Assembly: GCA_904846145.1 (NCBI GenBank)
Contig: CAJGZL010000001.1
Location: 2,108,001 to 2,172,000, forward strand
Direction: 5' to 3'
DNA length: 64,000 bases
From: Psychrobacter immobilis
Lineage (GTDB): Bacteria > Pseudomonadota > Gammaproteobacteria > Pseudomonadales > Moraxellaceae
The notes below the pieces were generated by a model, which saw nothing but the letters and a program-made list of their open reading frames with translations, ran no database searches and was not told the DNA's origin. Positions 9,671 through 26,042 of the stretch are shown in pieces; position 1 is the stretch's first letter; every line of letters begins with the position of its first letter. The translations under genes were made by a program, and so were the position numbers.

Positions 9671-9690
9671 TACCAACAATAATACCAACA
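9671..9690. repeat. Integrase arm-type site, element 2 left end
   Basis: TACCAACAATAATACCAACA, identical to 25846-25865 on the integrase side. Matching repeats flanking both att cores are typical of arm-type binding sites for tyrosine integrases with an N-terminal arm-binding domain. Confidence 0.6.
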
Positions 9691-10108
9691 ATCGTTTTTG
9701 ATAATGCCCTTTTTTGGCTGTTTGCTGCTTCATTGGATATTATTTTGTAATTATTTACCGTCGTTACTTGTCGTAAAAGTCCCTTTATGTGCGGTTGAAT
9801 TGCTGACGACTGCACGCGCTTAAATAATGGCGCTTAAAGTTAAGCGTTTTTCGCGCGTTTTTTGTGCGTTTACTCATATCTAAATAGAACCACTTCACGG
9901 GGTATCGATCCAGATTGGCGGTGAATAGATGCATCCATAAATGGATTTATCTCATCACACGCGCAAACAACGTGCATTGTGATTGCTCAAATATAGCCAA
10001 TTTATACGTGCGTTTTTAATGCATTCTCTTGCATCATACCTAGTAAGTCTTATCCGACTTGCCAGCTTATCGCGTGTTTGTGGCTGATCCTGTAATGCCA
10101 TGACTTCA

Positions 10109-10560: not shown

Positions 10561-10737
10561 TCCCTAGTTTCCCTAAATAAGTTTCCTAACGCTGTTAGGT
10601 TTCCGTCCTCACGCCTTTGTGTGTATAGCTGTTTCCACTTTATCGGTTTTTGAAACTGACAAGAAATGTTTCCTGATTATCGTCAGTTTCCTGTATTTTT
10701 CCTCACCGTTAACTGTGCCAGTGCTGAGACTTGCCAG

Positions 10738-10776
10738 CACAAAAAAAGGCAGACGCGAACGCCTACCTTTGATTAT
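10738..10776 (-). terminator. UUCG-loop terminator after the restriction operon
   Basis: On the minus strand AAAGGTAGGCG, loop TTCG, CGTCTGCCTTT forms an 11-bp stem (two G-U pairs) followed by a run of seven T. A near-identical copy stands at 16665-16702. Confidence 0.85.
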
Positions 10777-10822
10777 GATGGATTATCTACTGTTGGCTAG
10801 CCTGCTTGTACGGATCAAGCCG

Positions 10823-11854: not shown

Positions 11855-14800
11855 TATTTCTTATCTCCAAATAGTTCATTGCATTTTATTTCAAAGTTGC
11901 TTTCACCTTTTGCATAAGGCGTGGTGTCTAAGTAAACAATATGCGATTGATTGATGTTTTCAGCTCTTTCATCAAACCCAAAAATAAAATGACGCGCAAT
12001 ATTATAAATAATCTCAGTGGGTGCAAAGCCATACACCTGATTCTCTAAAATATGCTTTAGCCTTGCATCAGGATCAGGTATGTTACCCTCCAATCCAACA
12101 TACAAGCGTTTGACAATCTCAGTCAGATATAAGCCAGACTTCAGATATAAGTCTGCAAACGTCTTATTAGGGTCAGAAAACAGGTCGGGATCTTCTTCCT
12201 CAAGCTTATCTAGCATCATTTTGACCACTTTTTTGGGCGTAAATATCTGATTGGTTTGCTGTGGTGGAATATAGTCAAAGATATCCTCTTGCTGACTCTC
12301 ATCAAAATAATTGGCAAGTTGGGTGCGTTTTTTTAGGAACTCAAAGATGGATTCGTCAAATACGATTTCATTAAAGAACTGGTGATCATCACGCAACGTT
12401 CTGAACTGATGTAACTCAATACCCGTGACCTCTTTAAAAACACTATCGCTGATATGCTTATCGAAGTTTTGTAAGGAGGTATCACACTCACCATACGCCA
12501 TTAAAAATGACGGTATGGTACGAGTAAAACCACGCAAACGGGAGCGGACATCATCTTCAACTGTATTTTTCTTTTTATCCTCAGCTTTGGTTAACATCGT
12601 TTCGGTTGATTGCTGAACCAGCTCTTTTGTTTTGGTTTCAATTTTGGTGGCCAATTCCCGTTGATAATCGCTTTGTATTTGGGCTTGTGCCGCCTTGTAA
12701 TTGACAGTCGCTTCCGCCACTTTATCAGCATCAGAATAGGCTTCTGCCACCACCTTTTTGTACACAATTTCTGCTTCGTTTTGTTTGATTTTCGCCTGTG
12801 TTTGCGTAAATTCAACTTCACGAGCCAGCACTTGTGCGGATGCTTGCGCCACTTGTTCTGCAACCTTAGCAGACAGCCCTTTGTCTTGAGCCAACGCCTT
12901 TAAGACCTGTTCCGTGTTTTTCTTAAAGTCAGCCTCAATATTTTTTGCCAGATGGCTATCATCGACGGTAGCATCAGCGGCGAGATTAGATTGAAAATTG
13001 CCATAAAATTTATCCCCAAAACGGGCATTGGTTTCGGCAATCACAATATCTTCTGAAACGATGACATCACCCTTATCATCAACCGCAATATTGTTTGTGT
13101 TGATTGATTCAGACTGTTGACGAGGAGTCGACTTTCCTTGATCCACAGGATTGAGCTGATTCAATATCTCTTGAACCTCAGCCGAGGCAAAGATACCCGA
13201 AACATTTTGGAATAGCAGGTTAGACATAAACCCACGTCGCACGACTTCTTGCGCCTTAATGGTTTTGGGAATGGTTAACACTTGCGTGGCATCAAGTGCC
13301 ACCATTTTCCCCTCATTATCTTCTGCAATCACAGGAAAAAAGTTTAGCAACTGTTTGATATTATCAGTACGATCATCGCTAGTACCACTGCCATTTACTG
13401 TTTTTCTAGACAGGTTATTGGCAAATTCTTCATAAATGGTTAGCGTGCGTTCTGGCGCAAAATCAAACACATAGGCATTTTGTTTTTGATGAATGTCGCC
13501 ATCAATCTCATACTCCCACGGGTTTTGAGCACGAAAAGCCGCTTGCATATAAAGGCTGGGTGATTTGGCGTTCGATAACATTAATACCGCTGTCCACTCA
13601 GGAATAGTGATACCAGTGGTGAGTTGACCCACAGATAACGTGATGGTTTTATCATGAGCCTTAATAGCCTCTTTAACTCGATTGATGGACTTATCGGTAG
13701 TCACTTGCTCCGCATCTTGATCATGACCACGACCATCACCTGCTGCCAATATAATGTCGTAGTTTTCAAAGACTGGATGGTTTTGGAGTAGTTTTTGCAA
13801 CGCTTTGGCACTTGCGACACGGTTTAATAGCCAAAACGTGTGTTTAAGCTCATTACGCCATACTTGGGTTGAGAAGGGATACTTTTCATTACGAGATAGT
13901 GCATCTAGCCACTTGCTAACATCTGCTTCATGTACAAATTTTCCACTATTATTGGTTTCAAAAAATTCATTCAAATCGAAAGCATAATCCATATTCTCCC
14001 CTTCAATTTGAGCGCCTTTGTTCACTTTATCAGTAATCATTTGGCTCATTTGATAGGAAAATAAGTTTAACTGGGGCATCTTTTCATAAGGGTTGTTTTC
14101 GTCTGGATGATTCCAATTGGCTTTGGCGTTTTGCTCATCCTCATAAGTCCAGTTGTAAATGCTATCGTCATTGAACGTTCCAGCAGCAACGGCTTTAAAT
14201 GGTGTGCCAGATAAGTGTAAGGTAAACTTCTTAGTAATGTTCTCAAAAGCAACATCAGTCTTAAAGGTATCTACCCCCTCATGGGCTTCATCGATGACCA
14301 GTAAATCCCACGTCCGTTCTTTCACCCAGCAGAGTTTCTTATGATTTCCACCAAAAGCTATCGCCCCCTTCAAGTCTTGTAGAGAGATAAAAGCGATCAT
14401 GTTTTTTTTGCCCGTAGCTCTTTGCGCTAAAAACTCATCTCTTGTCATGACAGGGCGTTCACTTAATGAATCGCTGGTAGAAACAAATGCAAAGTCTGTC
14501 TGCCATGCAATAAACGTCTCAAAGTCATCAAACCATGAATTGGCAATAGCAGGACGGTTAGTCACAATCAAGACTTTAGTGGCATTGAGTTTACGTGCTA
14601 AGTCATAGGTGGTGAGTGTTTTGCCAAATCGTGGTTTAGCATTCCATAAGAACTTACCTTCAGGGTTGCTCTTAATAGCCTCTAACGTCTTCTCTACCGC
14701 CTCATTTTGTTCAGAACGCAGTTGATACTCTAAAGTATCTTTGGTCTGCTCATAACGACTGTTTATAAAGTCCTCAAAATCAAAACGAGCCTTCTCTGGC

Positions 14801-15117
14801 GTGCCATGATAATAAAACCACTCTGATGGAAAATCTTGTTGGACGCCCTTGTTCTGACGCAAATAAGTGTGGAACTGCTTATCTGTAAACCAAGTATCGC
14901 TTGTGTTAAATTTTGCAGGCGCTGCCCATAACTTGACATACTTATGATGTACGGCAGCTGTTTTTGTCTGCTCTTTAATCCTGACATCAACATCTTTACG
15001 TCGTGTATAGCCTATTTTGACCCAATCTTTTCTATCTGAATAATCCAGCAAGGTATAAGCATAAATTTGCGGATAGACTATTTTTGTCGTTTGTATGGTT
15101 ATATGATTACTGTCCAT
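11854..15117 (-). CDS. GIY-YIG (T5orf172-like) / SF2 helicase / methylase-N fusion protein
   Basis: A 1087-aa protein. Residues about 18-48 (AYTLLDYSDRKDWVKIGYTR) look like a T5orf172/GIY-YIG nuclease strand pair. The SF2 helicase motor follows with Walker A KPRFGKT (about 161), DEAH (about 276), SGTPF (about 303), and an arginine-finger region QAAFRAQNPW. A long alanine/glutamine-rich coiled coil spans about 690-860. The C-terminus has FTPKKVVKMMLDKL and DLYLKSGLYLTEIVKRL, an atypical methylase motif I with KSG, then stops just where the NPPY motif would come; that motif opens the next gene. I place the start at ATG 15117, which overlaps the preceding stop (TGATG). Likely a restriction-modification or related defence ATPase. 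Confidence 0.85.
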   Translation of the reverse strand: MDSNHITIQTTKIVYPQIYAYTLLDYSDRKDWVKIGYTRRKDVDVRIKEQTKTAAVHHKYVKLWAAPAKFNTSDTWFTDKQFHTYLRQNKGVQQDFPSEWFYYHGTPEKARFDFEDFINSRYEQTKDTLEYQLRSEQNEAVEKTLEAIKSNPEGKFLWNAKPRFGKTLTTYDLARKLNATKVLIVTNRPAIANSWFDDFETFIAWQTDFAFVSTSDSLSERPVMTRDEFLAQRATGKKNMIAFISLQDLKGAIAFGGNHKKLCWVKERTWDLLVIDEAHEGVDTFKTDVAFENITKKFTLHLSGTPFKAVAAGTFNDDSIYNWTYEDEQNAKANWNHPDENNPYEKMPQLNLFSYQMSQMITDKVNKGAQIEGENMDYAFDLNEFFETNNSGKFVHEADVSKWLDALSRNEKYPFSTQVWRNELKHTFWLLNRVASAKALQKLLQNHPVFENYDIILAAGDGRGHDQDAEQVTTDKSINRVKEAIKAHDKTITLSVGQLTTGITIPEWTAVLMLSNAKSPSLYMQAAFRAQNPWEYEIDGDIHQKQNAYVFDFAPERTLTIYEEFANNLSRKTVNGSGTSDDRTDNIKQLLNFFPVIAEDNEGKMVALDATQVLTIPKTIKAQEVVRRGFMSNLLFQNVSGIFASAEVQEILNQLNPVDQGKSTPRQQSESINTNNIAVDDKGDVIVSEDIVIAETNARFGDKFYGNFQSNLAADATVDDSHLAKNIEADFKKNTEQVLKALAQDKGLSAKVAEQVAQASAQVLAREVEFTQTQAKIKQNEAEIVYKKVVAEAYSDADKVAEATVNYKAAQAQIQSDYQRELATKIETKTKELVQQSTETMLTKAEDKKKNTVEDDVRSRLRGFTRTIPSFLMAYGECDTSLQNFDKHISDSVFKEVTGIELHQFRTLRDDHQFFNEIVFDESIFEFLKKRTQLANYFDESQQEDIFDYIPPQQTNQIFTPKKVVKMMLDKLEEEDPDLFSDPNKTFADLYLKSGLYLTEIVKRLYVGLEGNIPDPDARLKHILENQVYGFAPTEIIYNIARHFIFGFDERAENINQSHIVYLDTTPYAKGESNFEIKCNELFGDKK

Positions 15118-16130
15118 CAATTGATTCCTTTGTTAAAATATTCCATCTTTTTTGTATCCCAATTCATAATTCGAACCCGTTTGCCTGATTTTATGATCCA
15201 TTCATCTGTTGTGCTGTCATCATCAAACAAAGATAACTGCTGCTTAACGACTTTTTTTCGACTACTTGATAATGGAATGATGTATTTCAAACCATCCATT
15301 TGAAAAATATTGTAGCTAATGATTTCTGCTATATCTTTAAATAAGCTATAGATAGGTTCCTCAAGCCACTTCGCAAGATAATAATCTCGATACGTGTAGA
15401 GTAGGTTTTCTCGTGCCAATAACAGTGAATCTCCGCTCCATTCAAAGCCGTAGCTGGATTGATAAGCCTTTTTGACCATCAACTGCCATTCAGCCTTATC
15501 ATGAATCTCAGCGTTAATTCTCTGTAGTTTGCGATCAACAAAGCCCACTCGTTGCTCAAGGCTAATAATTTTTCCCGTTTCCATATCGTAGCGACTTGCC
15601 ATGTAAGGTGCTTCACCACAGGTTATTTCCAACCATTTGCGTTTAACATAGGTCTCTAAGTCGTCATTAATATAATTAGAGTCTAAGATATCGTTTTGTT
15701 TTTTGACTATCCAAGTAGGTGTAAACACCTCAGCTTTTGACTTAGTACGCTGTTTTTGTATGTGCTGTGCCTTTAGTGCTCTAGGCATAATGATTTGTCC
15801 TAGAGCGCCCGTGATTAACGCTGGCTTAATTTGGGATTTGGCAACATAGTATCTTCCACCATATTGAATATAGTTTTCGGTAGCCCAAATAATGTTTTTT
15901 TTACGTTTAGGCATAGAGGTTGTCCTATCAATCAGTAAAAGATCAAGAATGTCGGGCATTTGCTCACGGATTGTATTTTCAGAGATATCAGCGGAGCTAA
16001 GCTCAATGATTGCCTCCTTATCCTGACGTGCATATTTATCTCTAGTAGCGTAAGAGTCGAGACCAAAAAGATAAGCGTCTTCTGAATGTGTCATATATCT
16101 TCTATATTTATTATTAATACTTAGATTCAT
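15117..16130 (-). CDS. Restriction endonuclease subunit M-like protein
   Basis: A 337-aa protein of a family usually annotated as restriction endonuclease subunit M. Recognisable blocks are KAEVFTPTWIVKKQND, WLEITCGEAPYMASRYD, RVGFVDRKLQRIN, YGFEWSGDSLLLARENLLY and IISYNIFQMDGLKYIIP. Family members accompany a DEAD/DEAH helicase and an Eco57I-type methylase, as here. The role is probably methylation support or target recognition, but the catalytic NPPY motif is not visible in this chain. The start may be ATG 16130 or ATG 16094 (MTHSEDAYLFG, after AGAAG). First gene of the three-gene operon; translation is coupled to the helicase by TGATG. Confidence 0.8.
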   Translation of the reverse strand: MNLSINNKYRRYMTHSEDAYLFGLDSYATRDKYARQDKEAIIELSSADISENTIREQMPDILDLLLIDRTTSMPKRKKNIIWATENYIQYGGRYYVAKSQIKPALITGALGQIIMPRALKAQHIQKQRTKSKAEVFTPTWIVKKQNDILDSNYINDDLETYVKRKWLEITCGEAPYMASRYDMETGKIISLEQRVGFVDRKLQRINAEIHDKAEWQLMVKKAYQSSYGFEWSGDSLLLARENLLYTYRDYYLAKWLEEPIYSLFKDIAEIISYNIFQMDGLKYIIPLSSSRKKVVKQQLSLFDDDSTTDEWIIKSGKRVRIMNWDTKKMEYFNKGIN

Positions 16131-16254
16131 AAAATGATTAACTCAGCGAAATACAGCATGATTAAACTTGAAGTGCTTGCATCTAGCAAAAAATTAGGCG
16201 ATACAAGCCTGCCTTTGAGAATAATGATAACGGTTCGCCTATAGGGTGAAGGTG

Positions 16255-16554
16255 CTATATCAAGATAACGTCACTGTTTGGCATCTTCGCGATAACGCTT
16301 ACCTCACCGCCTAACGCTCTGACATAGTTTTGTAAGGTCGATAGCTGAATATCTTTGCCGCTCTCAACCTTTGAGATATTCGCTTGCGATACGCCCATTA
16401 TGGCGGCAAGATCGATCTGCTTTAGCTGTTTGGTTTTGCGTAGCTTGGCAAGCTCAATAGACTGGCTTAAGCGTTTGGCTTTGTTATTGATGACTTGCTG
16501 TCTATCGGCTGGCAAGTCTGCCACGTAGTCCTCTAAGGTGCTGAAGTCTGTCAT
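16255..16554 (-). CDS. XRE-family transcriptional regulator
   Basis: A 99-aa protein with a helix-turn-helix at residues about 42-70 (KQLKQIDLAAIMGVSQANISKVESG) and the C-terminal LQNYVRALGGEVSVIAK that typifies small XRE regulators of the HigA/antitoxin sort. No toxin gene lies beside it. It precedes the restriction-like operon by 124 bp on the same strand, so it is a good candidate for its controller, in the manner of C proteins of restriction-modification systems; that role is inferred from position. Confidence 0.8.
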   Translation of the reverse strand: MTDFSTLEDYVADLPADRQQVINNKAKRLSQSIELAKLRKTKQLKQIDLAAIMGVSQANISKVESGKDIQLSTLQNYVRALGGEVSVIAKMPNSDVILI

Positions 16555-16664
16555 AGATTAAATCTCTATTTTTTATATCCCCTCATCATACAACAATTCA
16601 GTTATATTTTGTCGAGTTTTAGGCTATTAGCTTTAGCCTCCTAGGGTAAAAAGAAAGTATCAGC

Positions 16665-16702
16665 CACAAAAAAGGCAGACGCGAACGCCCACCTTTGATT
16701 AT
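16665..16702 (-). terminator. UUCG-loop terminator after the DUF927 operon
   Basis: Near-identical to the terminator at 10738-10776: minus-strand AAAGGTGGGCG, loop TTCG, CGTCTGCCTTT (11 pairs, three G-U) then six T. It closes the alpA-to-DUF927 operon. Confidence 0.85.
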
Positions 16703-16727
16703 TTTTGTTGTAACCTAGTTTTTTGCA

Positions 16728-16935
16728 TGGGACAGACGGGACAGACGGGACAGCCCTTACGGGGTATAGCTTACAGCTGTCCCGTTTAGGTTTTTAGCAA
16801 TGGGACAGACGGGACAGAAAAGTTAAAATGTAAAATCCTGTCCCGTTCGTCCCGTTTAGGTTTTTAACAATGGGACAGCGCAATCCCTTGCTGCATATAG
16901 CCTGTCCCGTCCGTCCCGTTTGTCCCGTCCTTTTT
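16728..16935. repeat. GGGACAG two-orientation repeat cluster, candidate replication region
   Basis: About a dozen copies of GGGACAG(ACG) or its complement CTGTCCC(GTC) in about 200 bp, arranged as alternating direct and inverted groups: three forward at 16730-16752, one reverse at 16777, two forward at 16801-16817, reverse pair at 16841-16857, one forward at 16871, reverse group at 16901-16930. The cluster lies around the stop codon of the DUF927 replication gene. In phage P4 the origin-type repeats recognised by the alpha protein are likewise close to the alpha gene, which is why I suggest a replication role; this is inference. Confidence 0.6.
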
Positions 16936-19395
16936 CATAGGGTCACGCTTTTTCATAGGGTCACAAGAAAGTATGTTAGCCGTCACCGCATAAACAGAAG
17001 GACGTTGCTTGCCACTAAATAAAGTATCAGGCGCTTTGTAGATTTTGCGGTCACCTTGATTAAGTAGTAATAAGTCGGCTTCCTCTAATACTTGCAATAC
17101 TTTGCTTTTACTAAAAGGCTCACATACCTTGTTAAAAGTTTCCTTAGAAAAGTAATAGTCCCCCGTGTCCATATTGCGATAACCTACACGGTTGGGGGTT
17201 CTCTCCTCAAAGTCTGAGCGTATGTTTCTATAGCAAGCCTGAAAGCGACTTGATCCGTGCTGTTCAATAAACGCCTTGATATGCTCTATGATTTGGCGCT
17301 GCTCATGCTCACCATCACGCCCATAGTTATCAAGCCAATTATCTAAGCAAGTCATAACGGCTTTGGTTGCTTGTCCTGCTTGCCAACCTGTGATATTGGC
17401 ACTCGTTGCCATTTCACCAGCGGCTGCCACAATAGCAAAGCGATAAGCCACTCTATGCGCTTGTGGGGACAGGTCGCTATACTGGCTCATAAAATCATTA
17501 ACCAGTTGCTTAGCGGTGGCGGTGGTGGCTGCCTTGTCAGTGGTGATATGTTCTAGCCACGCTATGCCAGCCACGCCATAGTAAGCATGTGATAACTCTT
17601 TGATCCTGTCGGCTTGTGCTGCGCCTGTGGCTGCCAGTACCAAACTATCAAAGGTCTTTAAGCCTTTACCAGCATCAGCATCTATATGCGCCACGCGAAC
17701 CTCCACCCCTGCATTGGTCTTTTTCCCTGCTTGAGCCATTTCTTGCTGAATGGTTTTTTCACCATTCGACAAAAAGATAATGCGCCACGTTTTGGCAGTG
17801 CGATTATGTCCCGTGGTGGTGCTACGTCCTTTACCTTGACCATTACCCAGCATATAAATAATATTGCCTAGTATTGTGGGATTGCCCTCACTGACTTCAT
17901 CGAGTGGTAAAAAGCTGTCGTTGTGCTCGCTTGCTGTTCCCTCTAGGGCGTTGTCTGTGCTGCGCCATGTCTTAACGTACCTGTCAGGGTTGCCCCATAC
18001 ACTAGCAGCCACTTTAAGCGATAACGACTTACCCATGCTTGATGAACCTAAAAAATGAAAACCACCGCTATCACTGCCTAACGGCTCGAGTAATTGACCT
18101 GCAAAAGCGCAAGCAATAGAGAAAACAAAACGGCTTTGTTCTGCTAGTGGTTTGCATAGCTCGTTACGCCATTGGGGTAATGTGCCTTGCTGGGCTAGTG
18201 TGCTGTTGATTGCATTAGCAGATTGATAGACAGTGATCTGCTTATCATCGCCACCTATTGAGCCATTAGCTAGTATGTACTGCTTATCATGCCAGCCTAG
18301 TCTATCCACGCATAACGCCCGTTCATAAACAGGGTAGTTTTGAATATAAGCGTCTAAGTAATTGCGCTGCTTGCTATTGGTGGTAATACTCAAGCCTTGA
18401 CTGGCTAATTCTCTACGGTATTCCTTAGCGTCACCTTGTAGTAGTGATAACGGCATTGCCCATTTATGCAGCTCGTCATCATCATCACACCACTGTAATA
18501 ACCGCCCCCATGTACCGCTGCTTGTGTCCCGTGTCTTAGCGATAACCTCTATCGGTGAACAAACAAACGCCTTAAACTTGAAAGTTATGTTTGCTGGGTC
18601 ATCATCGTTATACTTCACGAAAAATAGCCCGTCATGGTATAGCTCAAAACGCCCACCTTCATAAACCATAGGCTCATTCAGCTGGGGATCATCACGCCAT
18701 TGGGGATAATAAGCAGTATCTTGTAAATTGATAAGCTGGGTGTCACTGTCTGCTAGTATGGCTTTATAGCTGTCATTTTGTAGCATAGTGACGATATGAG
18801 CCACGGTCACCAATCCACGCGCCCTTACCCCTGCCAATAGGTTGATTAAGCCCTTATCATCAAGCGTCATCGGTACAGTTACCAGTGATCCGCTGCTCCA
18901 GTGCTGTACCATCTTTTTTAAGGACTGCCTTGTTCTGTGAGGGCTAATGATAAAAGTTATCTTGTCATCTGCCATACATTGATAAGCATCAATACCATGA
19001 TCCGCATTATCAAACGCTATCACTTCATTGGCTTTGTTCGTGTCACCAATGACGATAGCGCCATACCCTGTAGGATCAATAACAATGGGCTTGGTTTTGC
19101 TGTTTGGTGTGTAGAATACCGCGCCTACTATGTTGCCTTGTTTGTCGGTCAATGCTAGGGCTATGGTGTTGGCTGTCGCTTCGGTTTTGCCAATATCATC
19201 ACCATGATATATAGTAGTATCACCTGTAACAAATAGCAGTCGTTCAGGTTCTACCATGCTGTAAATCTTGATTAAAAACGGATCGTTTGCCAGTTGTTCC
19301 TCTGTGGCTGGCTTGCAATCTTGTAAGAGAGTATGAGCGCCCATGTTGTCCGCATGGGCTTTTTCATGGCTGTCTGTTGGTGTGGTGGTCATCAT
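16864..19395 (-). CDS. DUF927-type replication helicase/primase-like protein
   Basis: An 843-aa protein. The N-terminal 300 residues resemble the primase/toprim-like region of island replication proteins (GIDAYQCMADDKITFII). The DUF927 ATPase follows with Walker A GSSSMGKS at residues 450-457 and a Walker B-like FLPLDEVSEG near 495. This is the counterpart of P4 alpha-type and other satellite replication proteins, expected to start or unwind DNA at the island origin. The last residues (DGTNGTDGTGYMQQG) are encoded by the GGGACAG repeat cluster itself, and MKKRDPMKKDG by a 17-bp tandem repeat. The start overlaps the stop of the 36-aa gene (ATGA). Last gene of the alpA operon. Confidence 0.85.
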   Translation of the reverse strand: MMTTTPTDSHEKAHADNMGAHTLLQDCKPATEEQLANDPFLIKIYSMVEPERLLFVTGDTTIYHGDDIGKTEATANTIALALTDKQGNIVGAVFYTPNSKTKPIVIDPTGYGAIVIGDTNKANEVIAFDNADHGIDAYQCMADDKITFIISPHRTRQSLKKMVQHWSSGSLVTVPMTLDDKGLINLLAGVRARGLVTVAHIVTMLQNDSYKAILADSDTQLINLQDTAYYPQWRDDPQLNEPMVYEGGRFELYHDGLFFVKYNDDDPANITFKFKAFVCSPIEVIAKTRDTSSGTWGRLLQWCDDDDELHKWAMPLSLLQGDAKEYRRELASQGLSITTNSKQRNYLDAYIQNYPVYERALCVDRLGWHDKQYILANGSIGGDDKQITVYQSANAINSTLAQQGTLPQWRNELCKPLAEQSRFVFSIACAFAGQLLEPLGSDSGGFHFLGSSSMGKSLSLKVAASVWGNPDRYVKTWRSTDNALEGTASEHNDSFLPLDEVSEGNPTILGNIIYMLGNGQGKGRSTTTGHNRTAKTWRIIFLSNGEKTIQQEMAQAGKKTNAGVEVRVAHIDADAGKGLKTFDSLVLAATGAAQADRIKELSHAYYGVAGIAWLEHITTDKAATTATAKQLVNDFMSQYSDLSPQAHRVAYRFAIVAAAGEMATSANITGWQAGQATKAVMTCLDNWLDNYGRDGEHEQRQIIEHIKAFIEQHGSSRFQACYRNIRSDFEERTPNRVGYRNMDTGDYYFSKETFNKVCEPFSKSKVLQVLEEADLLLLNQGDRKIYKAPDTLFSGKQRPSVYAVTANILSCDPMKKRDPMKKDGTNGTDGTGYMQQGIALSHC

Positions 19396-19502
19396 TTACC
19401 CCTTGCTTGTGACTGGTTCGGCTGGCGTGTGGCTCTATACTTCTTGTAGTAGCTCTTACGCTTGGCGTGTTTACGGCTCTGCTTTGGTGGGTAGCTTCTC
19501 AC
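19392..19502 (-). CDS. 36-aa strongly basic peptide
   Basis: GTG start at 19502 preceded by AAGGAGG at 7 nt, an excellent ribosome-binding site. The product begins MRSYPPKQSRKHAKRKSYYK and is about one third lysine plus arginine. Both ends overlap neighbours by 4 nt (GTGA with the 196-aa gene, ATGA with the DUF927 gene), so it is part of the coupled operon and fills the only apparent gap there. The charge suggests binding to nucleic acid, possibly as a partner of the replication protein. No known family recognised. Confidence 0.65.
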   Translation of the reverse strand: MRSYPPKQSRKHAKRKSYYKKYRATRQPNQSQARGK

Positions 19503-20089
19503 TCTGCTACCTCCTTGCCGTAACCTGTCATCGCTAACGGTTCATTGATGATATTTAATTGACTGCATAGCAAATTAGCCCATGTGTCGGCTGCATCATG
19601 CGATAGACGCGCCATAGACCTAGCTTGCTGGGGTGTTATTTCTTGCTTATAGATTAGGTGTAACAGTGCGCCTATATCGTTTAATACAGTGATAGCGCCT
19701 GTCAGGTCACAAGCAATATCCGATAGCATAATAGACGGGATCAAGATAACTTCGTTGTCGGCTGCTTCGGTTATGTCTATTACTGTGCGCTGGCTAGTTT
19801 GGCTGCCACTGTATAACGTGGCTATTGCTTGGCGGTTGGCTTGTGTATCGTGGAATAGTGACGGCAAGGCATCAGTAGGGAAGATGCGCCCATCACGACA
19901 AAAGCTGTGATAGTCATCACCAATGGGGATAACAAGGCGTTTGCTGCCCTTATCGCTGCCATTAGGGTGCAAGGTATAAACATCATGACCGATAGACGGG
20001 CATAAGCCGGCATCACCAGCTTTAAAAGTGGCTGGTGTGCTATTGGTAGGGGTTTGAGTGTTTGAGGTCGTACGGATTGAATTACCCAT
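19499..20089 (-). CDS. 196-aa island protein of unknown function
   Basis: Starts with ATG after GGAG at 8 nt. The N-terminal region has FKAGDAGLCPSIGHDVYTL and GSKRLVIPIGDDYHSFCRDG; the C-terminal half is helical (ITPQQARSMARLSHDAADTW). I recognise no family with confidence. Position immediately before the DUF927 replication gene, as in P4-like islands where small replication or regulatory accessory genes stand, suggests a role in replication control. It overlaps the following small basic gene by 4 nt. Confidence 0.7.
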   Translation of the reverse strand: MGNSIRTTSNTQTPTNSTPATFKAGDAGLCPSIGHDVYTLHPNGSDKGSKRLVIPIGDDYHSFCRDGRIFPTDALPSLFHDTQANRQAIATLYSGSQTSQRTVIDITEAADNEVILIPSIMLSDIACDLTGAITVLNDIGALLHLIYKQEITPQQARSMARLSHDAADTWANLLCSQLNIINEPLAMTGYGKEVAE

Positions 20090-20369
20090 GATGAATAGCT
20101 CCTAGTGATTTATGAGTGAGTGCCACGCTATACGGTAAAAGTATAGGGTGACGGGTCTTACTCTCGGCATCACTAGAAGCCGCCCTGCATATTCGCCTTT
20201 CGGCTATTTTATTTTGCAGCGTCAACCCGTCATAGTCGGTTAGCAAGTGATCTGCTATAGATATGATGGTTTGCCCCCTTGTGGCGCTTGAGTACGCTTG
20301 AGGGGCGGTGCTTGATTGAATAGTGACAGCTTGAGAGGCTGCGCTAGTATCAGGCACAAAAAAAGCCAA
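20082..20369 (-). CDS. Doubtful 95-aa frame with TTG start
   Basis: The frame covers the space between the 76-aa and 196-aa genes and overlaps the latter by 8 nt, like other gene pairs here. However its TTG start lies inside a T-rich hairpin, it lacks a clear ribosome-binding site, and the composition (serine/alanine-rich, ending CRAASSDAESKTRHP) matches no family I know. It could be translated by coupling, start further inside, or be spurious. Confidence 0.35.
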   Translation of the reverse strand: MAFFVPDTSAASQAVTIQSSTAPQAYSSATRGQTIISIADHLLTDYDGLTLQNKIAERRICRAASSDAESKTRHPILLPYSVALTHKSLGAIHHG

Positions 20370-20384
20370 TAAGTAACGGCTGAC

Positions 20385-20615
20385 TTATCCGCTAGTGATT
20401 TTCGAGAGGTCTATATAGTAACCATTGTTGGTATTGGTTGCAATCTGTTTTGGTTGTACTGGCTGGCAAGCAACCAATGACAGTAGCAAGCCGATAGCTG
20501 CCACCCATGCCATGAATATGATAAAGCTAAGTAGTAAGCCGCGTTTATCTATCTGCTTGCGATTGTGTGCCCCGTGGTCGGCTTTTAGATTGGGCTTGGT
20601 ATGATTATCAGTCAT
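20385..20615 (-). CDS. 76-aa single-pass membrane protein
   Basis: Polar N-terminus (about 25 residues), one clear membrane segment LLLSFIIFMAWVAAIGLLLSL (first 20: residues about 27-46), then a cysteine (VACQP) and a short polar tail. The segment followed by C could be read as a lipobox, but it is too far from the N-terminus. Start overlaps the previous gene by 8 nt; GAGG lies 12 nt ahead. Function unknown; small membrane proteins are common in the early operons of satellite islands. Confidence 0.6.
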   Translation of the reverse strand: MTDNHTKPNLKADHGAHNRKQIDKRGLLLSFIIFMAWVAAIGLLLSLVACQPVQPKQIATNTNNGYYIDLSKITSG

Positions 20616-20844
20616 GGCTTGCTACCTCTGTCACGCTCAATGCAATATCAGTCACTCTCATTGATATTTCAATTATTTCACTAGCCAGCCTATCGTCTGT
20701 TAGGGCTGCAACATTAGATAATGCTGTCAGTGCCTTAGCATTCGCCATGATAGTGAGTAGTAACTGCTCAATGTAAGCATCAGGCAACCATACGCCCTTA
20801 CTACCTTCCTGCATTTCATCATCAATATATCTATTATCACTCAT
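20608..20844 (-). CDS. 78-aa island protein, unknown
   Basis: ATG preceded by GGAGG at 10 nt. Acidic N-terminus (MSDNRYIDDEMQEGSKG) followed by an amphipathic helical region (QLLLTIMANAKALTALSNVAAL, shown only in part here by family: repeated leucine/alanine spacing). It overlaps both neighbours by 8 nt. No family recognised. Its helical pattern resembles that of the next upstream 95-aa protein, so the two may be related or interact. Confidence 0.55.
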   Translation of the reverse strand: MSDNRYIDDEMQEGSKGVWLPDAYIEQLLLTIMANAKALTALSNVAALTDDRLASEIIEISMRVTDIALSVTEVASHD

Positions 20845-21124
20845 GGCTGATTACCTCCACTTGGTACGGTAATGCGTGTTCACAAAACATCTCGCTAACA
20901 ATACCTGCCAGCTCGCTATTGGCATAAAGTGCGGCTTTGACTGCCACAAGCACGCCTTGGCTAACATCGTCTTTTGTATTGATAGCATCTAGCGCGGTGG
21001 CTAAGTGATCAGTATCGCGGTAAATGTCCTGTATGCGGTCATACATAAGACGTAAGTAAAGGCTATCCACGGTCACTAGGCGGCTGGCTGGGGTGTCGAT
21101 TGATATGCTAGGGTGGTTATTCAT
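20837..21124 (-). CDS. 95-aa island protein, unknown
   Basis: ATG with GAGGTG upstream. Helical composition (LYLRLMYDRIQDIYRD, QGVLVAVKAALYANSELAGI) with no catalytic motif. It abuts the HTH gene with no spacer and overlaps the 78-aa gene by 8 nt. Unknown family; probably a small regulatory or accessory protein of the alpA operon. Confidence 0.6.
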   Translation of the reverse strand: MNNHPSISIDTPASRLVTVDSLYLRLMYDRIQDIYRDTDHLATALDAINTKDDVSQGVLVAVKAALYANSELAGIVSEMFCEHALPYQVEVISHE

Positions 21125-21406
21125 TTAGTTCACCTCACTGTTAGATAGTTCGCTTTCAAGTAATGTTGCTTCATCGAGCCAATAGACCGCGAACCATTTA
21201 TTGTTATGCTTGACCATTTCACTTTGAATGAGCAGTCCTTCCTCTCGTAAGTCATATATGCGAGGGGCTAGACTTGTAATTCTATAAAGGCGGATAGAGT
21301 CCCATATGGTGATAGTTGCGCCTGTCATTAGATGCGCTCTGATTATCTCTATTTGGGTCTTGGGGGCTGGTTGGTTGGTAACGGGTGCGGTTGCTGTAGT
21401 AGTCAT
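21125..21406 (-). CDS. Helix-turn-helix (winged) island protein
   Basis: A 93-aa protein with the pattern IEIIRAHLMTGATITIWDSIRLYR followed in sequence by PRIYDLREEGLLIQSE and WFAVYWLDE (longest quoted run split here). It matches the small winged-helix proteins of prophages and islands, in which a (K/R)xxIxxHLxxGxxIT stretch precedes a recognition helix. Likely a DNA-binding regulator of the island. Three base pairs separate it from alpA, same operon. Confidence 0.7.
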   Translation of the reverse strand: MTTTATAPVTNQPAPKTQIEIIRAHLMTGATITIWDSIRLYRITSLAPRIYDLREEGLLIQSEMVKHNNKWFAVYWLDEATLLESELSNSEVN

Positions 21407-21409
21407 GGT

Positions 21410-21703
21410 TTACACCTCGTCGCTAGTGATTGAGGTGTGTTTGTTGATCCATTCGTGAATGTCTGCATAGCTCCATGCGGTCATCGTAGGACTTAGCTTC
21501 TTGCCAGCTGGAAAGCGTCCGTCTTTTGACCATTCAAACAAGGTGGTTTTGCTAAAAGGTAGGAACGGCAAAATGTCCTTTGCTCTGCCTAAGCCGTGTG
21601 TAGGCAGTTGCATAGCTGGACTGTTTGCGGTGGTTGGGTTGGTGTCGTTCGCGGTGTTACCAGTAAAAGGAATTACTGGGGTGTCTTGGGTGGGGTGTGT
21701 CAT
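21410..21703 (-). CDS. AlpA-family regulator
   Basis: A 97-aa MerR-like DNA-binding protein of the AlpA family, which activates island or prophage genes including excision. Core block: GRAKDILPFLPFSKTTLFEW then SKDGRFPAGKKLSPTMTAW and SYADIHEWI (DNA-binding wing and helix). A proline/threonine-rich N-terminus precedes it. I set the start at 21703, not at the ATG two codons earlier, because GGAGCT then stands 7 nt ahead. Leads the operon that runs through DUF927; a hairpin in its leader is shared with element 1. Confidence 0.8.
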   Translation of the reverse strand: MTHPTQDTPVIPFTGNTANDTNPTTANSPAMQLPTHGLGRAKDILPFLPFSKTTLFEWSKDGRFPAGKKLSPTMTAWSYADIHEWINKHTSITSDEV

Positions 21704-21721
21704 GCTCATAGCTCCATGTCA

Positions 21722-21742
21722 GCTGTAGCGGTGTGCTACGGC
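21722..21742 (-). promoter_or_regulatory. AlpA-leader hairpin, element 2 copy
   Basis: Inverted repeat GCcGTAGC / GCTACaGC before the alpA ribosome-binding site. The element 1 counterpart at 6609-6626 keeps the pairing with a different loop and flanks, which points to selection on structure or on an operator. Confidence 0.45.
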
Positions 21743-21834
21743 TTTCAACATGGTTCTATGGTATGTGGTGGGGTATGGTGGTAGGCAATGGTGTTTAGTT
21801 AAGGCGGTGGCATCTGGTAAAGGTGCTACCTTGT

Positions 21835-22866
21835 TTAATCTTGCTCCAATTTATCATTATGAATAATATTAATGACTTCTAAAGAAGATAAGAGTTCAGG
21901 TGATTTTGTTTTTGAATTTAAAGGTGTCAATAGACGTCTAATCCTGATTTTTAAATTCCCTTTCCTAAGATTAAAGTCGTTAGCAATCCTGTTAAACCTG
22001 CCAGCGTCAAAATGTGAAATATGTTTTATAACATCGACTTGATAATATTCTTTCCATATCTCAATAGCTAAATGTAGTTCAGGGGGGTATTGGTTTTTAT
22101 CCATCGCTTGCCAATTGTATAGGTGGTCTTGTTCAATATTGTCGTTAGCTGGCTTGTCTACCTGTTGTTTTAATCGCTTTTGAAGATCGTTATTATCAGC
22201 GGTCAACTGAATAATATTTGCTTTTAATAAATCTATTTCTTGCTTTTGTGATTCAATTTTAGCGTTGTTATCTGAATTATTAAAAATTAGCGGGTCAATA
22301 TAACTCTCCTCATTCTCACAAATGAATGAGTCGATATAATCTTCTATTTGAGTCTTTGAGAATAGCAAATCATCTTGACTTATCTCTATACCGCCAAGAT
22401 TTCTTATCCTTTCCGCATCTTTTTCATTAGACGAGCTATAAAGCTTAGTCTGACCTGTAAGATTTGTATCAAATGTTACGCTCTTGGCGTTACCAAAAGG
22501 ACGTAAATGATTAAATGTTGTTCTAGCAAGTACAATTGATTTTCCTTTATATAAAAACTGCTCCTGTTGAGCTAATTCGTAAATTTGAGCTTCTGTAATC
22601 TCAATCTTTTTCTTTCTCTGGCTTGTCCAATTAAAAACATTGGTTATATTTTTGTTGGTCAAGCAACCTTTTACTGGAATAATAATATACTCAGTATCTT
22701 CTCCAGTGCCGCATGCATACTCTAAAGCATACGCATCATAACTAAAAACAGGAGTAATTTTGTCTTCCATACACGCATGTGCAAGCTGAGCTATGCTCTG
22801 TGGTTGACACGGTTTAGGTATGTTTTTAAGTTTCTCTAAAACTTGAGATAAAGATAAATAGTCCAC
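21835..22866 (-). CDS. 343-aa coiled-coil protein with C-terminal PPEL/W domain, unknown function
   Basis: GTG start (MDYLSLSQVLEKL). The N-terminal 200 residues are not recognised. A coiled coil lies at about 205-240 (SQKQEIDLLKANIIQLTADN onward), followed by KNQYPPELHLAIEIWKEYY and a basic C-terminus (GRFNRIANDFNLRKGNLKIR) that looks nucleic-acid-binding. The PPEL..W block matches that of the 337-aa protein in element 1, and both genes have the same structured leader and a non-ATG start. It sits between fic and alpA, a common place for accessory or anti-phage cargo and for regulators; role unknown. Confidence 0.7.
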   Translation of the reverse strand: MDYLSLSQVLEKLKNIPKPCQPQSIAQLAHACMEDKITPVFSYDAYALEYACGTGEDTEYIIIPVKGCLTNKNITNVFNWTSQRKKKIEITEAQIYELAQQEQFLYKGKSIVLARTTFNHLRPFGNAKSVTFDTNLTGQTKLYSSSNEKDAERIRNLGGIEISQDDLLFSKTQIEDYIDSFICENEESYIDPLIFNNSDNNAKIESQKQEIDLLKANIIQLTADNNDLQKRLKQQVDKPANDNIEQDHLYNWQAMDKNQYPPELHLAIEIWKEYYQVDVIKHISHFDAGRFNRIANDFNLRKGNLKIRIRRLLTPLNSKTKSPELLSSLEVINIIHNDKLEQD

Positions 22867-22976
22867 AATTCACACCCTTACACCCTTAAATCAAAGTAGG
22901 TGCAAGGCAGTGACAGCATAAGGGTGTGAATAGCTGTCGTTCGGGGGATCAACCCTAGCCTTGCATAGTCGTTATT
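22867..22976 (-). promoter_or_regulatory. Structured 5' leader, element 2 copy
   Basis: In transcript sense: outer stem GCAAGGC/GCCTTGC, inner stem GACAGC/GCTGTC, with loop AUUCACACCCUUA able to form 13 perfect pairs with UAAGGGUGUGAAU that contains the ribosome-binding site of the GTG start. The pairing is maintained in the element 1 copy although the sequences differ. A tandem AAGGGTGT lies just before the start. Confidence 0.58.
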
Positions 22977-23059
22977 ACATGGCGTTACCATGCTTTTGTG
23001 TTTGTCCTTTAAAGTCTGCACGGATCATATTGTCTACCTTGCTTCTCTTTATATTATTA

Positions 23060-24172
23060 TCAACAGCTATTATCATCGCTACGCAATAAATTCATTAACT
23101 TCATATTGATAAACAGCTTTTCATTACCTACTTGTATTTCTTTTAAAATACCAACTTCCACTAAAGTTTTTAGATAGTTGCTTGCGGTTTGACGTTTAGC
23201 AATCCCTTTATCTATAAGATTAACAATTCTACAATAAGGCATCTCAAAAATAATATTTACCAATTCATGGCTGTAGATATTTTTTGCTTCTTCTTTAATT
23301 AGTTGCGCCGTATTTTCATGTAGCTCTTTAATAGCTAATATTTTATTGGTTGTCCATTCGCTTGTCTCTTGAATAGCACTCAACATATAAATCAGCCATG
23401 TCTGCCAGTCTTGTTGTTCTGTTACACCTCTTAGTCCATTATAATATCCTGATTTATTTTGAATAATGTAACGGCTTAAATAAAGAATAGGTAAATCCAG
23501 TAAATCCTGTTCGATCAAATACAGAATATTGATTACTCTTCCTGTACGCCCATTACCATCAAAGAATGGATGTATTGCTTCAAATTGATAATGAGCAACT
23601 GCCATCTTGACTAAAGGATCTAGTTCGTCACCGTCGTCACTATCAGCATGTAAAAACTTTTCCCAATTGCTTAATAAGTTATTAATACTCTCTTGATTAT
23701 CAGGTGGTGTATAAATCAATTCACCCATACTATTTTGTAGTATCGTACCTTCACCATGGCGTATGCCAAGTTGTGTACCTTTAATAGTTCGGCAAACTTC
23801 TAAAGCAGTCTGAGCAGTTAATGGACGATTTTTTATATCATTTATACCCTCATAAAGTGCAGTGCGATAACGCAATGCTTCTTTAGTAGCATGGTCTGCA
23901 ACATGATCATCGTAAGCGTATTGAAAAAGATTATCAGCAGTTGTGACGATGTTTTCAATTTCGCTACTACCTTTTGCTTCAAGCATAGGAATAATATTAA
24001 TGAGCATCGCTTGGTTGGGAATAAGCTTTGCAGCTTGTTTTAAGCCAGCTAGAGCAGTTCTCGCTTTAATACACAGCTTTAAAATGACTTTAGTTTCTAA
24101 GTCTTGATTAGGTGGTAAATAAGGCAAATCATTGTAAGGCTTATCAGCCTTGAAGTCGGGATCTAATTGCAT
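23060..24172 (-). CDS. Fic family protein (AMPylation-type)
   Basis: A 370-aa protein with the complete Fic active-site motif HPFFDGNGRTGR at residues 201-212, including catalytic His201. It transfers AMP (or another phosphate-linked group) to protein targets. The N-terminal helix carries the self-inhibitory motif SSEIEN (residues 69-74, pattern S/T-x-x-x-E-N), so activity is normally restrained. The C-terminus has a winged-helix-like region (RIVNLIDKGIAKRQTASNYL). I choose the ATG at 24172 over 24223: the product then starts MQLDPDFKADKPYND like typical Fic proteins, and the longer version would read into the tandem repeats. Possible host-interaction or defence cargo. Confidence 0.88.
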   Translation of the reverse strand: MQLDPDFKADKPYNDLPYLPPNQDLETKVILKLCIKARTALAGLKQAAKLIPNQAMLINIIPMLEAKGSSEIENIVTTADNLFQYAYDDHVADHATKEALRYRTALYEGINDIKNRPLTAQTALEVCRTIKGTQLGIRHGEGTILQNSMGELIYTPPDNQESINNLLSNWEKFLHADSDDGDELDPLVKMAVAHYQFEAIHPFFDGNGRTGRVINILYLIEQDLLDLPILYLSRYIIQNKSGYYNGLRGVTEQQDWQTWLIYMLSAIQETSEWTTNKILAIKELHENTAQLIKEEAKNIYSHELVNIIFEMPYCRIVNLIDKGIAKRQTASNYLKTLVEVGILKEIQVGNEKLFINMKLMNLLRSDDNSC

Positions 24173-24185
24173 GATTTCTGTCTCA

Positions 24186-24560
24186 TATTTAAAAAACAGG
24201 AAGATATAAACATAGCTATACATCTATGTCGATAGCTTAAACATAGGTACTATACTATATTTAAAAAACAGGAAGATATAAACATAGCTATACATCTATG
24301 TCGATAGCTTAAACATAGGTACTATACTATATTTAAAAAACAGGAAAATATAAACATAGCTATACATCTATGTCGATAGCTTAAACATAGGTACTATACT
24401 ATATTTAAAAAACAGGAAAATATAAACATAGCTATACATCTATGTCGATAGCTTAAACATAGGTGCTATGCTATGTTTAAAAAATAGGAAAATATAAACA
24501 TAGCTATACATCTGTGTCGATAGCTTAAACATAGGTGCTATGCTATGTTTAAAAAACAGG
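24186..24560. repeat. 72-bp tandem repeat, about five copies
   Basis: The unit (starting TATTTAAAAAACAGGAAGAT) recurs with exact 72-bp spacing; the landmark ACAGG or ATAGG ends at 24200, 24272, 24344, 24416, 24488 and 24560. Copies near fic are almost identical; those near the integrase differ (GGTACTATACTATA becomes GGTGCTATGCTATG). Each unit contains inverted ACATAG/CTATGT and GCTAT/ATAGC. It fills the region between int and fic and probably includes the fic promoter, so copy number could tune expression. Confidence 0.9.
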
Positions 24561-24572
24561 AAAACATAAACA

Positions 24573-25802
24573 TTACTCACTTACTGATAGGATTAAACTG
24601 ATATCGTTATCCAGCTTGCCAGCATAAGCATCATCAATGAAGTTTGCCCATTGGTGCATCATGTCCGTTCTATAGGGTAAATGCTGCGCCCCGTTGTATG
24701 CTTTGCTGATCTTGTTATCTTTTTCATGGGCTAGTTGCAGCTCTATAGCTTCGTGCATGTATTCTTGTTCGTGTAGGGTAGTGCTGGCAAGCCCCCTAAA
24801 GCCGTGACCTGTCATCTTACCCTTGTAACCCATGCGCCATAGGGCAGTTATAAAGCCGTTGGTACTGTAGGGCTTACGGGTTGATGGATTAAAGAAAACG
24901 TACTTGTTTGAGAACCCTAGCGCCTTGATCTGCTCTAAGATTGCCATTGTTTGCGGTGCAAGTGGTACGTTATGCGGTCTATCCATTTTCATTTTGTCGG
25001 CTGGTATGCGCCATATTTTGGCTTTGTAGTCTATCTCTGACCACTCCATAAAGCGTAGTTCTTGAGTTCTCACAAACGTGTAGCACATAAACCATAAGCC
25101 TAGCTTTATCAGCACATCACCATCATAGGCGTTAATGTCTTGTAGTAGCTTAGGTAATTGCTGGCTAGTGATACGGCTATGATGCTTTACCTTATGCGGT
25201 TTTAGGGCTTCGGTTAAGTCATTGGCTGGGTTGGTATTGGTTAAGCCCTCACGTATGGCTTGTTTGAATATCTGCCCTACTTGACGCATTGAACGCCTAG
25301 CCATGTCACTAGCGCCCCTTGCTTCTACCGCTTTACCAATAGCCAAAATGTCAGGCGCGGTTATGTCCTCTATATTCATGTTACCAATGACAGGCTTAAT
25401 ATCGCGCTGGTACTGTGAGTAATCACGGCTATAGGTAGTAGGGGCTATATGTGCCTTGCGGTCATCATGCCAGCGTTGGGCTAGGGTATCGAACGCCCTT
25501 GATCCGTCATTGTCGGCTTGGGTCTTTTTCTTATCCTCTTTAGGGTTCACACCATCAGCTATGAGCCGTTTAATCTCAATATTGCGCTGCCTAGCGTTCT
25601 GCAAGCTCATGACTGGATAAGTGCCAATAGTTAAAGTTTGCTGTTTACCTTGCCAGCGGTAGGCGCTGATCCATGACTTAATGCCCGTATATCTAACCCA
25701 CAGTTGCAGCCCGTTACCATCGCTATGTTTGTCAGGTCGTTTTGTGGCTATAGAGGTGCTAGTAGGGGCTAGCTTGTTGATACTGGTATGGGTGAGGGGC
25801 AT
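24573..25802 (-). CDS. int: P4-type tyrosine integrase
   Basis: A 409-aa site-specific recombinase. An N-terminal arm-binding domain (DGNGLQLWVRYTGIKSW, LTIGTYPVMSLQNAR) is followed by a core-binding region and the catalytic domain with Arg245 (TFVRTQELRFMEW), HGFR (His333, Arg336), His359 (LAHE) and nucleophile Tyr369 (ISKAYNG). All catalytic residues are present, so it should be active. It lies 160 bp from the tRNA-Pro att site with arm-type repeats in between. The stop is directly followed by the 72-bp repeats. Confidence 0.95.
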   Translation of the reverse strand: MPLTHTSINKLAPTSTSIATKRPDKHSDGNGLQLWVRYTGIKSWISAYRWQGKQQTLTIGTYPVMSLQNARQRNIEIKRLIADGVNPKEDKKKTQADNDGSRAFDTLAQRWHDDRKAHIAPTTYSRDYSQYQRDIKPVIGNMNIEDITAPDILAIGKAVEARGASDMARRSMRQVGQIFKQAIREGLTNTNPANDLTEALKPHKVKHHSRITSQQLPKLLQDINAYDGDVLIKLGLWFMCYTFVRTQELRFMEWSEIDYKAKIWRIPADKMKMDRPHNVPLAPQTMAILEQIKALGFSNKYVFFNPSTRKPYSTNGFITALWRMGYKGKMTGHGFRGLASTTLHEQEYMHEAIELQLAHEKDNKISKAYNGAQHLPYRTDMMHQWANFIDDAYAGKLDNDISLILSVSE

Positions 25803-25815
25803 TAGACTATCCTTT

Positions 25816-25865
25816 GTTGGTATTGTCCATGTTGGTACTGCTCAATACCAACAATAATACCAACA
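25816..25865. repeat. Integrase arm-type sites, element 2 right end
   Basis: An inverted pair: TTGGTATTGTCCATGTTGGT at 25816-25835 and TACCAACAATAATACCAACA at 25846-25865, the latter identical to 9671-9690. Located between the integrase start and the att core, where the arm-binding domain is expected to act. Confidence 0.6.
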
Positions 25866-25961
25866 TTCTATATGGAACGCCATAGACCTATATAGGGGTC
25901 AATACCTGAAAAACGCCCAAAATAAAGGGCATACGGTCTATGACGGTATGCCCTAATATAG

Positions 25962-25982
25962 TGTTTGGTCGGAACGGCAGGA
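25962..25982. repeat. attR of element 2 (21-bp core)
   Basis: Second copy of the 21-bp repeat at 9590-9610. It covers the 3' 17 nt of tRNA-Pro (acceptor and T-stem side) plus 4 bp beyond, so integration restores the tRNA gene. Confidence 0.88.
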
Positions 25983-26042
25983 TTTGAACCTGCGACCCCT
26001 ACACCCCCAGTGTAGTGCGCTACCAGACTGCGCTACGCCCCG
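25966..26042 (-). tRNA. tRNA-Pro (anticodon GGG)
   Basis: A 77-nt gene with encoded CCA end. The acceptor pairs CGGGGCG with CGUUCCG (two G-U), the anticodon stem is CUACA/UGUAG with loop CUGGGGG, giving anticodon GGG at 26006-26008, and the T-arm is GCAGG-UUCAAAU-CCUGC. The 5' C1 paired with G72 is the proline tRNA identity feature. Its 3' end is the integration site of the island. Confidence 0.95.

Follow-up and report, generated by a model that had tools for sequence, protein, structure and literature searches.

A candidate C4-like antisense RNA family preceding the variable first gene of satellite-type elements in Psychrobacter

Two leaders beside a tRNA-Pro gene

The window analysed here, a 64,000-nucleotide stretch of the genome of Psychrobacter immobilis, carries a satellite-type island (9590..25982, minus strand) bounded by 21-bp direct repeats of the 3' end of tRNA-Pro (9590-9610 and 25962-25982). 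The tRNA-Pro (GGG) gene (25966..26042, minus strand) is the attachment site, and upstream of it lie gatB (26155-27660), a gatA-type amidase gene (28244-29740) and gatC (29877-30191). Within the island are an integrase gene (24573-25802), a structured RNA core (22887..22965, minus strand), a SoFic-like Fic gene situated between these two (23060-24223; PADLOC SoFic, E 1.8e-117), an unannotated first gene of 343 aa with a GTG start (21835..22866, minus strand), an AlpA gene identified by Pfam (21410-21709), a DNA primase gene (16864-19395; DUF927 and PHROG) and, as cargo, three ORFs with type IIG-like genes for restriction and methyltransferase functions (10823-16130). A 72-bp tandem array (24185-24573; 5.4 copies, 97% match) occurs between the SoFic gene and the integrase gene; Fic genes also end just before the RNA at two loci in another genus (L167 and L184, genus g14). 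A second copy of the RNA (7758..7836, minus strand) stands in front of a resident-type first gene of 337 aa with a TTG start (6725..7738, minus strand), beside which we note a toxin-antitoxin-like pair (5706-6346), consisting of a RelE match below the Pfam cut-off and an HTH/MqsA-type antitoxin.

A preliminary description of this DNA had reported one leader shared by two different accessory genes; these are better described as the first gene of a satellite (22.9 kb) and a copy of resident type near the attachment site (7.7 kb). The similarity of the leaders, given there as roughly 85 per cent over about 105 bp, holds (82% over 108 nt, and 83% over query positions 2-121), as does the statement that the proteins behind them are unlike, since these are unrelated by BLASTP (best E = 0.18). 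Both copies contain the GCAAGGC/GCCTTGC and GACAGC/GCTGTC stems that had been proposed, with fold z scores, measured against dinucleotide shuffles, of -4.14 at 22.9 kb and -3.37 at 7.7 kb.

The satellite copy, delimited by covariation, fold z score and a cmsearch match of 95.9 bits to the covariance model R1 (described below; 77.1 bits for the resident-type copy), comprises three helices, for which all coordinates refer to the minus strand. Outer helix P1, placed by covariation, joins a 5' arm TGCAAGGC (22958..22965) to a 3' arm GCCTTGCA (22901..22908), and is followed by a T-rich stretch (seen in T-run counts) that is terminator-like in some family members and weak at the 22.9-kb copy. Enclosed by P1 are the mini-hairpin P2 (GGG..CCC; 22945..22955; covariation and folding) and the hairpin P3 (GACAGC/GCTGTC; 22912..22938; covariation), whose antisense loop TATTCACACCCTTAT (22918..22932) was identified by the loop-target test described below. 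The loop has two target sites, T1 TAAGGGTGT (22880..22888; loop-target test and pair count) and T2 TAAGGGTGTGAAT (22868..22880), the latter including a Shine-Dalgarno-like AAGGG. As the preliminary description had it, 13 consecutive Watson-Crick pairs connect loop and T2 just before the GTG, a number that rises to 15 when two G-U pairs are included. Pairing is also present at 7.7 kb, where the target TAAGGGTGTAGA (7748..7759, minus strand) forms 12 pairs with its own loop, two of them G-U, rather than the 11 originally counted. The accompanying argument that pairing survives sequence change is weak on the two window copies alone, since the loop at 7.7 kb pairs about as well with the target at 22.9 kb (14 pairs, four of them G-U), and it is in the wider set of copies that it finds support. 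In sequence, the P3 loop (CACACCCTTA) is similar to the anti-Shine-Dalgarno end of 16S rRNA (CACCTCCTTA), a likeness to be expected of an RNA that blocks a ribosome-binding site.

Directly 5' of the RNA lies a further hairpin, P0 (22977..22993, minus strand), detected by its folding z score, which averages -2.75 in 73 distinct satellite copies versus -0.43 in 21 orphan copies. P0 is near-palindromic, and may be a processing site, an operator or a terminator; by eye, its loop holds the integrase stop codon in many satellites, and in the window the SoFic gene intervenes. A consensus scan of 22800-23120 detected no minus-strand promoter, and a TATAAT-like hexamer was seen by eye before P1 in many copies. 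At gathering level, the only Rfam matches in the window were a tRNA and Alpha_RBS, with no family assigned to the leaders; the Alpha_RBS match (47574-47665, 45.2 bits) is an ordinary ribosomal-protein operon leader. As judged from sequence comparison, the leaders represent an RNA family without an Rfam match, its novelty being relative to Rfam release 15 and the protein libraries used.

Spread, fold and loop-target pairing of the RNA family

BLAST searches recovered the leader from 67 of 105 genomes of the genus, with a maximum of three copies per genome (the number present in the window's own genome), and from three Psychrobacter plasmids, and did not find it in the phage records searched. 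We took 104 copies with their surroundings, of which 101 distinct leaders were aligned (alignment A2) after three identical leaders were dropped; a second match on L124 was discarded as a duplicate of L125. R1 was built from 73 of the 80 satellite copies, leaving out seven with identical cores together with the orphans. A covariance-model search of the family's genomes, a check proposed in the preliminary description, yielded homologues whose helices strongly co-vary: at E <= 0.001, and with filters that lose weak matches, R1 places the RNA in 93 of 348 genomes and 3 of 16 genera of the family Moraxellaceae (76 genomes in the window's genus, and 15 and 2 in two other genera). The two other genera are presumably Moraxella and the group of Moraxella boevrei; an exact pattern drawn from these RNAs had 55 matches in named genomes, every one of them under a Psychrobacter or Moraxella title. 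The RNA is also carried by sixteen viral contigs, 10 of which have an integrase upstream inside the retrieved stretch.

RNAalifold and a count on the named structure agree on the paired positions (seven in P1, two in P2, and five or six in P3). Among the 101 distinct copies, two-sided changes occur at 11 of 15 pairs and number 78 versus 15 in shuffles, 96.2% of paired cells are paired versus 89.9 ± 0.3%, and the covariation score is 0.223 versus 0.113 (attained in 0/500 shuffles). Pairing falls to 30-42% when partners are slid by one to three columns, a comparison that favours any structure derived from the same sequences. For 35 distinct newly found copies, in an alignment fitted to the model, the corresponding values are 97.1% paired versus 79.1% and a score of 0.544 versus 0.184 (0/500), and the outer stems of these copies include TAGCAGGC/GCCTGCTA and TGCATGGC/GCCATGCA. 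The helices contain more G-U pairs than A-C mismatches (57 to 17 and 42 to 13), as does the loop-target pairing (80 to 37), so that the sense strand acting as RNA fits better than duplex DNA. In only 29 of 80 satellites is P1 followed within 16 nt by a run of at least 5 T, and consequently a discrete 3' end is plausible only in those 29.

In most copies, two tandem sites, T1 and T2, are found downstream of P1, with T2 bearing a Shine-Dalgarno-like run and the sites as a rule stopping a few bases short of the start codon. Matched changes in loop and target include CATGCC/GGCATG, CGCACCC/GGGTGCG and CCACACC/GGTGTGG. The mean energy of the duplex between each loop and its own target is -16.3 kcal/mol across 101 copies, compared to -7.6 with a shuffled target and -14.2 ± 0.21 when targets are permuted among the copies, a value from which none of 5000 permutations reached that observed. 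The same direction was found in 20 copies from the two other genera that played no part in forming the idea (-13.7 versus -11.4 ± 0.61, 0/5000; one duplicate among the 21 non-Psychrobacter copies was excluded), and in 17 further Psychrobacter copies (-11.8 versus -10.4, 26/5000), although such permutation counts are not true probabilities, because copies are related by descent. Our per-position pairing table is biased towards pairing, in that the register is chosen copy by copy as the best one, and it excludes three loci (L172, L173 and L177). Pairing with the own target is weak in a few satellites (L099, -5.7; L101, -8.7; L102, -9.3). No second target was found 5' of the RNA, as the 150 nt 5' of P1 gave -6.4 versus -7.3 kcal/mol for shuffled sequence (n=73). 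The earlier suggestion that the leader is a cis-regulatory RNA, or belongs to the system as a component in its own right, is supported by the strong covariation of the helices, the co-variation of loop with target and the recurrent position of the leader before satellite first genes.

Satellite elements, first genes and resident-type copies

An integrase lies upstream, within 3 kb, of 81 of 104 copies (101 of 142 when later copies are included), and integrase, small HTH gene and primase-type gene are all found around the leader in 52 of the 104. The remaining contexts are integrase and HTH gene (16), integrase and primase (9), integrase only (4) and none of these (23); counting HTH classes apart, 47 of 104 copies combine an integrase, an AlpA/HTH_17-type gene and a primase-type gene. 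Elements with the usual order of integrase, RNA, variable gene, small HTH gene and primase are satellite-type. Among the HTH reference genes, only that of the window belongs to Pfam AlpA, those of L034 and L035 being of HTH_17 type; in L033, L034 and the window, the second gene encodes a winged helix HTH_39, and the 924-aa gene of L035 has only a sub-threshold match to DUF5906. All integrases checked are tyrosine recombinases, and in the window this enzyme, an AlpA-type regulator and a primase occur together at a tRNA site, as in P4-type satellites. The genes psu, sid and delta, which serve to hijack the capsid of a helper phage, are not named among the matches for that part of the satellite ORFs that was scanned. 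On each of three circular plasmids, the RNA is accompanied by RepM, integrase, a variable gene, an antiterminator Q gene and HTH genes, with a DUF3987 primase-type gene on two of them and a long gene without a clear profile match on the third. A few copies are found in prophage-like regions, where the gene behind the RNA differs from the satellite first gene: in L072 (leader near 5661-5790) the RNA is flanked by genes for an S24 repressor and an AAA_24 protein, and in L272 (2839-2914) it precedes a gene whose protein has a P-loop motif by eye.

A first gene was located for 100 of 104 copies, with a median length of 311 aa (56-594) and with GTG (63), ATG (33) or TTG (4) as start. The 96 first genes of at least 150 aa (four copies lack a first gene and four have shorter ones) are mosaics, in which 30 N-terminal and 7 C-terminal clusters appear in 35 combinations, numbers that depend on single linkage at E 1e-4; the window's gene combines N cluster 7 with C cluster 2. 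The constant association with PPEL-domain genes that had been put forward for checking is not borne out, given that [PA]PEL is present in just 11 of the 96. Nor did these genes prove to encode a known defence or phage protein, as Pfam, PADLOC, NCBIfam and PHROGs give scattered weak matches only, those from Pfam and NCBIfam being largely to coiled-coil families. No convincing relative of solved structure was found by sequence (two weak Rad50 matches, E about 0.05). AlphaFold models the window protein poorly (mean pLDDT 50.9); the 257-aa protein of L116 is predicted, with moderate confidence (72.3), to be all-helical, and its model found no match in the PDB at E <= 0.001. The RNA is of interest as a marker of a fast-evolving gene family that the libraries used leave unannotated.

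A different arrangement characterises 27 resident-type copies from 27 genomes, which have no integrase upstream and sit some 59-143 nt, mostly near 130 nt, behind the end of tRNA-Pro or a copy of the attachment site. In 18 of the 27, the end of a GatB reading frame is found 261-884 nt upstream, indicating that the tRNA itself adjoins those copies; in some others a satellite is lodged between tRNA and copy (e.g. L125 and L065). The 7.7-kb copy of the window, additional to these 27, is of resident type, yet lies 1774 nt from the attachment repeat, and between the two is a unit resembling an insertion sequence, with inverted ends of 31 bp (8449-9525), which contains a fragment of a Mutator-type transposase (8518-9165).

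Constraint on the RNA differs between orphan and satellite copies. Leaving aside L072, L043 and L112, divergence of orphans in helix P1 is 0.22-0.23, compared to 0.03-0.04 in satellites; for T2, the values are 0.18 in orphans and 0.35 in satellites, the latter inflated by alignment gaps. Own loop-target pairing is also weaker in orphans (median -11.8 versus -16.9; 21 and 76 copies; rank test p = 3e-7). The dN/dS ratio of the resident-type gene, in the six pairs that were neither too close nor too distant to be informative, is 0.18, 0.17, 0.20, 0.10, 0.32 and 0.46, and that of satellite first genes, in three pairs, is 0.14-0.20. Given low dN/dS together with a looser RNA, it seems from these sequence comparisons that the resident protein is kept, as it is in satellites, and that its RNA has been relaxed, although part of the constraint on the resident gene may predate its capture, and relaxation of the RNA is a tendency, because some residents (L039, L103, L125 and L086) still pair well. 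With their fixed position by the attachment site, the residents allow a natural comparison between a retained gene and an RNA whose constraint is looser.

A proposed off switch and its relation to known antisense RNAs

The fold, the co-variation of loop and target, the usual gene order and the less constrained RNA of resident-type copies are what the sequence comparisons show. We consider it likely that the leaders specify a C4-like antisense repressor RNA of a new family, in which the P3 loop blocks the ribosome-binding site of the first gene. Under this hypothesis, the leader would give rise to a folded RNA some 75-80 nt long, made up of the outer helix P1, the mini-hairpin P2 and the hairpin P3, and the P3 loop would act as antisense to the ribosome-binding site of the gene immediately behind. 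Pairing of the loop with the tandem sites T1 and T2 would hide the Shine-Dalgarno sequence and block translation of the first gene, and polarity would probably lower expression of the HTH and primase genes that follow, keeping the integrated satellite quiet in the manner of the C4 RNA of phage P1 and the CI RNA of phage P4. On this analysis, the RNA probably works as an off switch for the first gene, and we infer that it is made as a separate RNA, acts in trans and represses, with the downstream genes following. Weighing against this reading are the negative consensus scan for a minus-strand promoter, the lack of a T run after P1 in most satellites, the weak own-target pairing of L099, L101 and L102, and the failure to find a further target 5' of the RNA.

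An alternative hypothesis, which we regard as unlikely but deserving of serious consideration, is that of a two-state leader that works only in cis. The loop would base-pair, within its own mRNA, with the ribosome-binding site and compete with P1 and P3, serving as an attenuator or as a sensor driven by temperature, a ligand or the ribosome, with no action in trans. The loop lies close to its target, and in unconstrained folds of the leader the loop-target helix is preferred in 36 of 80 satellites, and P1 in 19; at 22.9 kb, too, the long helix between loop and ribosome-binding site is preferred over P1 and P3. The preference in those 36 leaders keeps a purely cis-acting switch in contention. 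Moreover, co-resident elements do not avoid shared loops. Heteroimmunity, in which satellites in one genome would carry non-matching loops, was rejected on 23 pairs, whose cross energy was -15.3 versus -14.8 ± 0.66 when permuted, and two of which had the same loop (77 satellite copies with a genome, excluding identical duplicates and three plasmid copies). This result counts against strict incompatibility, and elements at different sites may tolerate a shared RNA. Against a switch confined to cis are the RNAs of L172 and L173 (genus g14), which lack a good downstream target (-5.3 and -7.1 kcal/mol) and better fit a free RNA; the best other site per locus, setting aside the RNA's own complement, reaches about -12 to -13 kcal/mol, and the two are possibly stand-alone RNAs. 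The layout of the leaders, furthermore, parallels that of C4 in phage P1, which is annotated as a separate antisense RNA.

It is improbable that the leader is a spent relic, without regulatory role, that persists as a conserved joint for first-gene swaps by homologous recombination. The mosaic of first genes behind a constant leader is what such a joint would produce, but homology for recombination requires no compensatory changes in helices or in loop-target pairing, nor would it account for a helix P1 that is tightly kept in satellites and looser in orphans. Least probable is a DNA-level site (a folded single-stranded recombination or nicking site, for which integron attC provides a precedent, or a protein-binding palindrome), since, despite hairpins beside an integrase gene, the near-palindromic P0 5' of the RNA and modular genes behind it, G-U is favoured over A-C on the sense strand, T1 and T2 lie at the ribosome-binding site, the integrases checked are tyrosine recombinases, and the attachment repeat of the window is at the tRNA, away from the leader.

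Extending the antisense repressor reading, we tentatively propose a broader scenario that is rather less likely to hold as a whole. The RNAs would be trans-acting antisense immunity RNAs of a new family, found here in Psychrobacter and Moraxella only, which silence a rapidly shuffled mosaic effector in satellites. The chromosome would have captured effectors by tRNA-Pro, where the gene is selected and the RNA decays, such that the host would express the effector and the RNA of an incoming satellite could still silence it.

The known antisense RNAs closest in anatomy include C4 of phage P1 (RF01695), which is likewise short and structured, lies in the leader of an operon of a phage and is directly followed by target sites and the first gene. 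In the annotation of phage P1, C4 (48343-48419) precedes the sites a2 (48423-48429) and b2 (48452-48459), noted for 'repression of icd ant translation', with icd beginning at 48470. The Psychrobacter RNA shares with C4 an antisense segment whose complementary sites lie at the ribosome-binding site of the gene that follows. The Psychrobacter RNA, in contrast, has one antisense loop and two tandem copies of one target, whereas C4 has separate a and b targets, and the upstream targets a1 and b1 of P1 and P4 have no counterpart in the 150 nt 5' of it. Rfam C4 matched none of 18 Psychrobacter leaders, both window copies included, at E <= 1, and gave no match to either window copy at E <= 5; R1 did not match the P1 and P4 stretches, and the c4-a1b1 model did not match the Psychrobacter leaders. 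As a positive control, Rfam C4 matched the P4 RNA at 74.9 bits, and c4-a1b1 matched the P4 leader at 44.1 bits, just under its gathering score of 46.7. Having C4-like anatomy without a match to RF01695, the RNA is not a member of that family on the tests made.

The CI RNA of P4, which pairs with its own leader and ends transcription, similarly belongs to the operon leader of an integrating satellite with an excisionase/regulator gene, one that also has a primase; here, however, an integrase gene of the same orientation usually sits immediately before the leader, and the protein of the first gene is large and variable. Type I antitoxins are antisense RNAs that block ribosome-binding sites, and share antisense pairing across such a site, yet in the present case the antisense element is upstream on the target's own strand rather than on the opposite one, and the target gene (median 311 aa as called) is not a short toxin peptide. 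Co-resident copies do not show the incompatible specificities to be expected of phage immunity RNAs, with no avoidance in the 23 pairs. What emerges is an RNA without an Rfam match that fronts a variable gene, either within satellite-type elements or next to the site at which they attach, and which, if the proposed mechanism is correct, would be a second, structurally distinct case of the way in which P1 C4 and P4 CI quiet an element.
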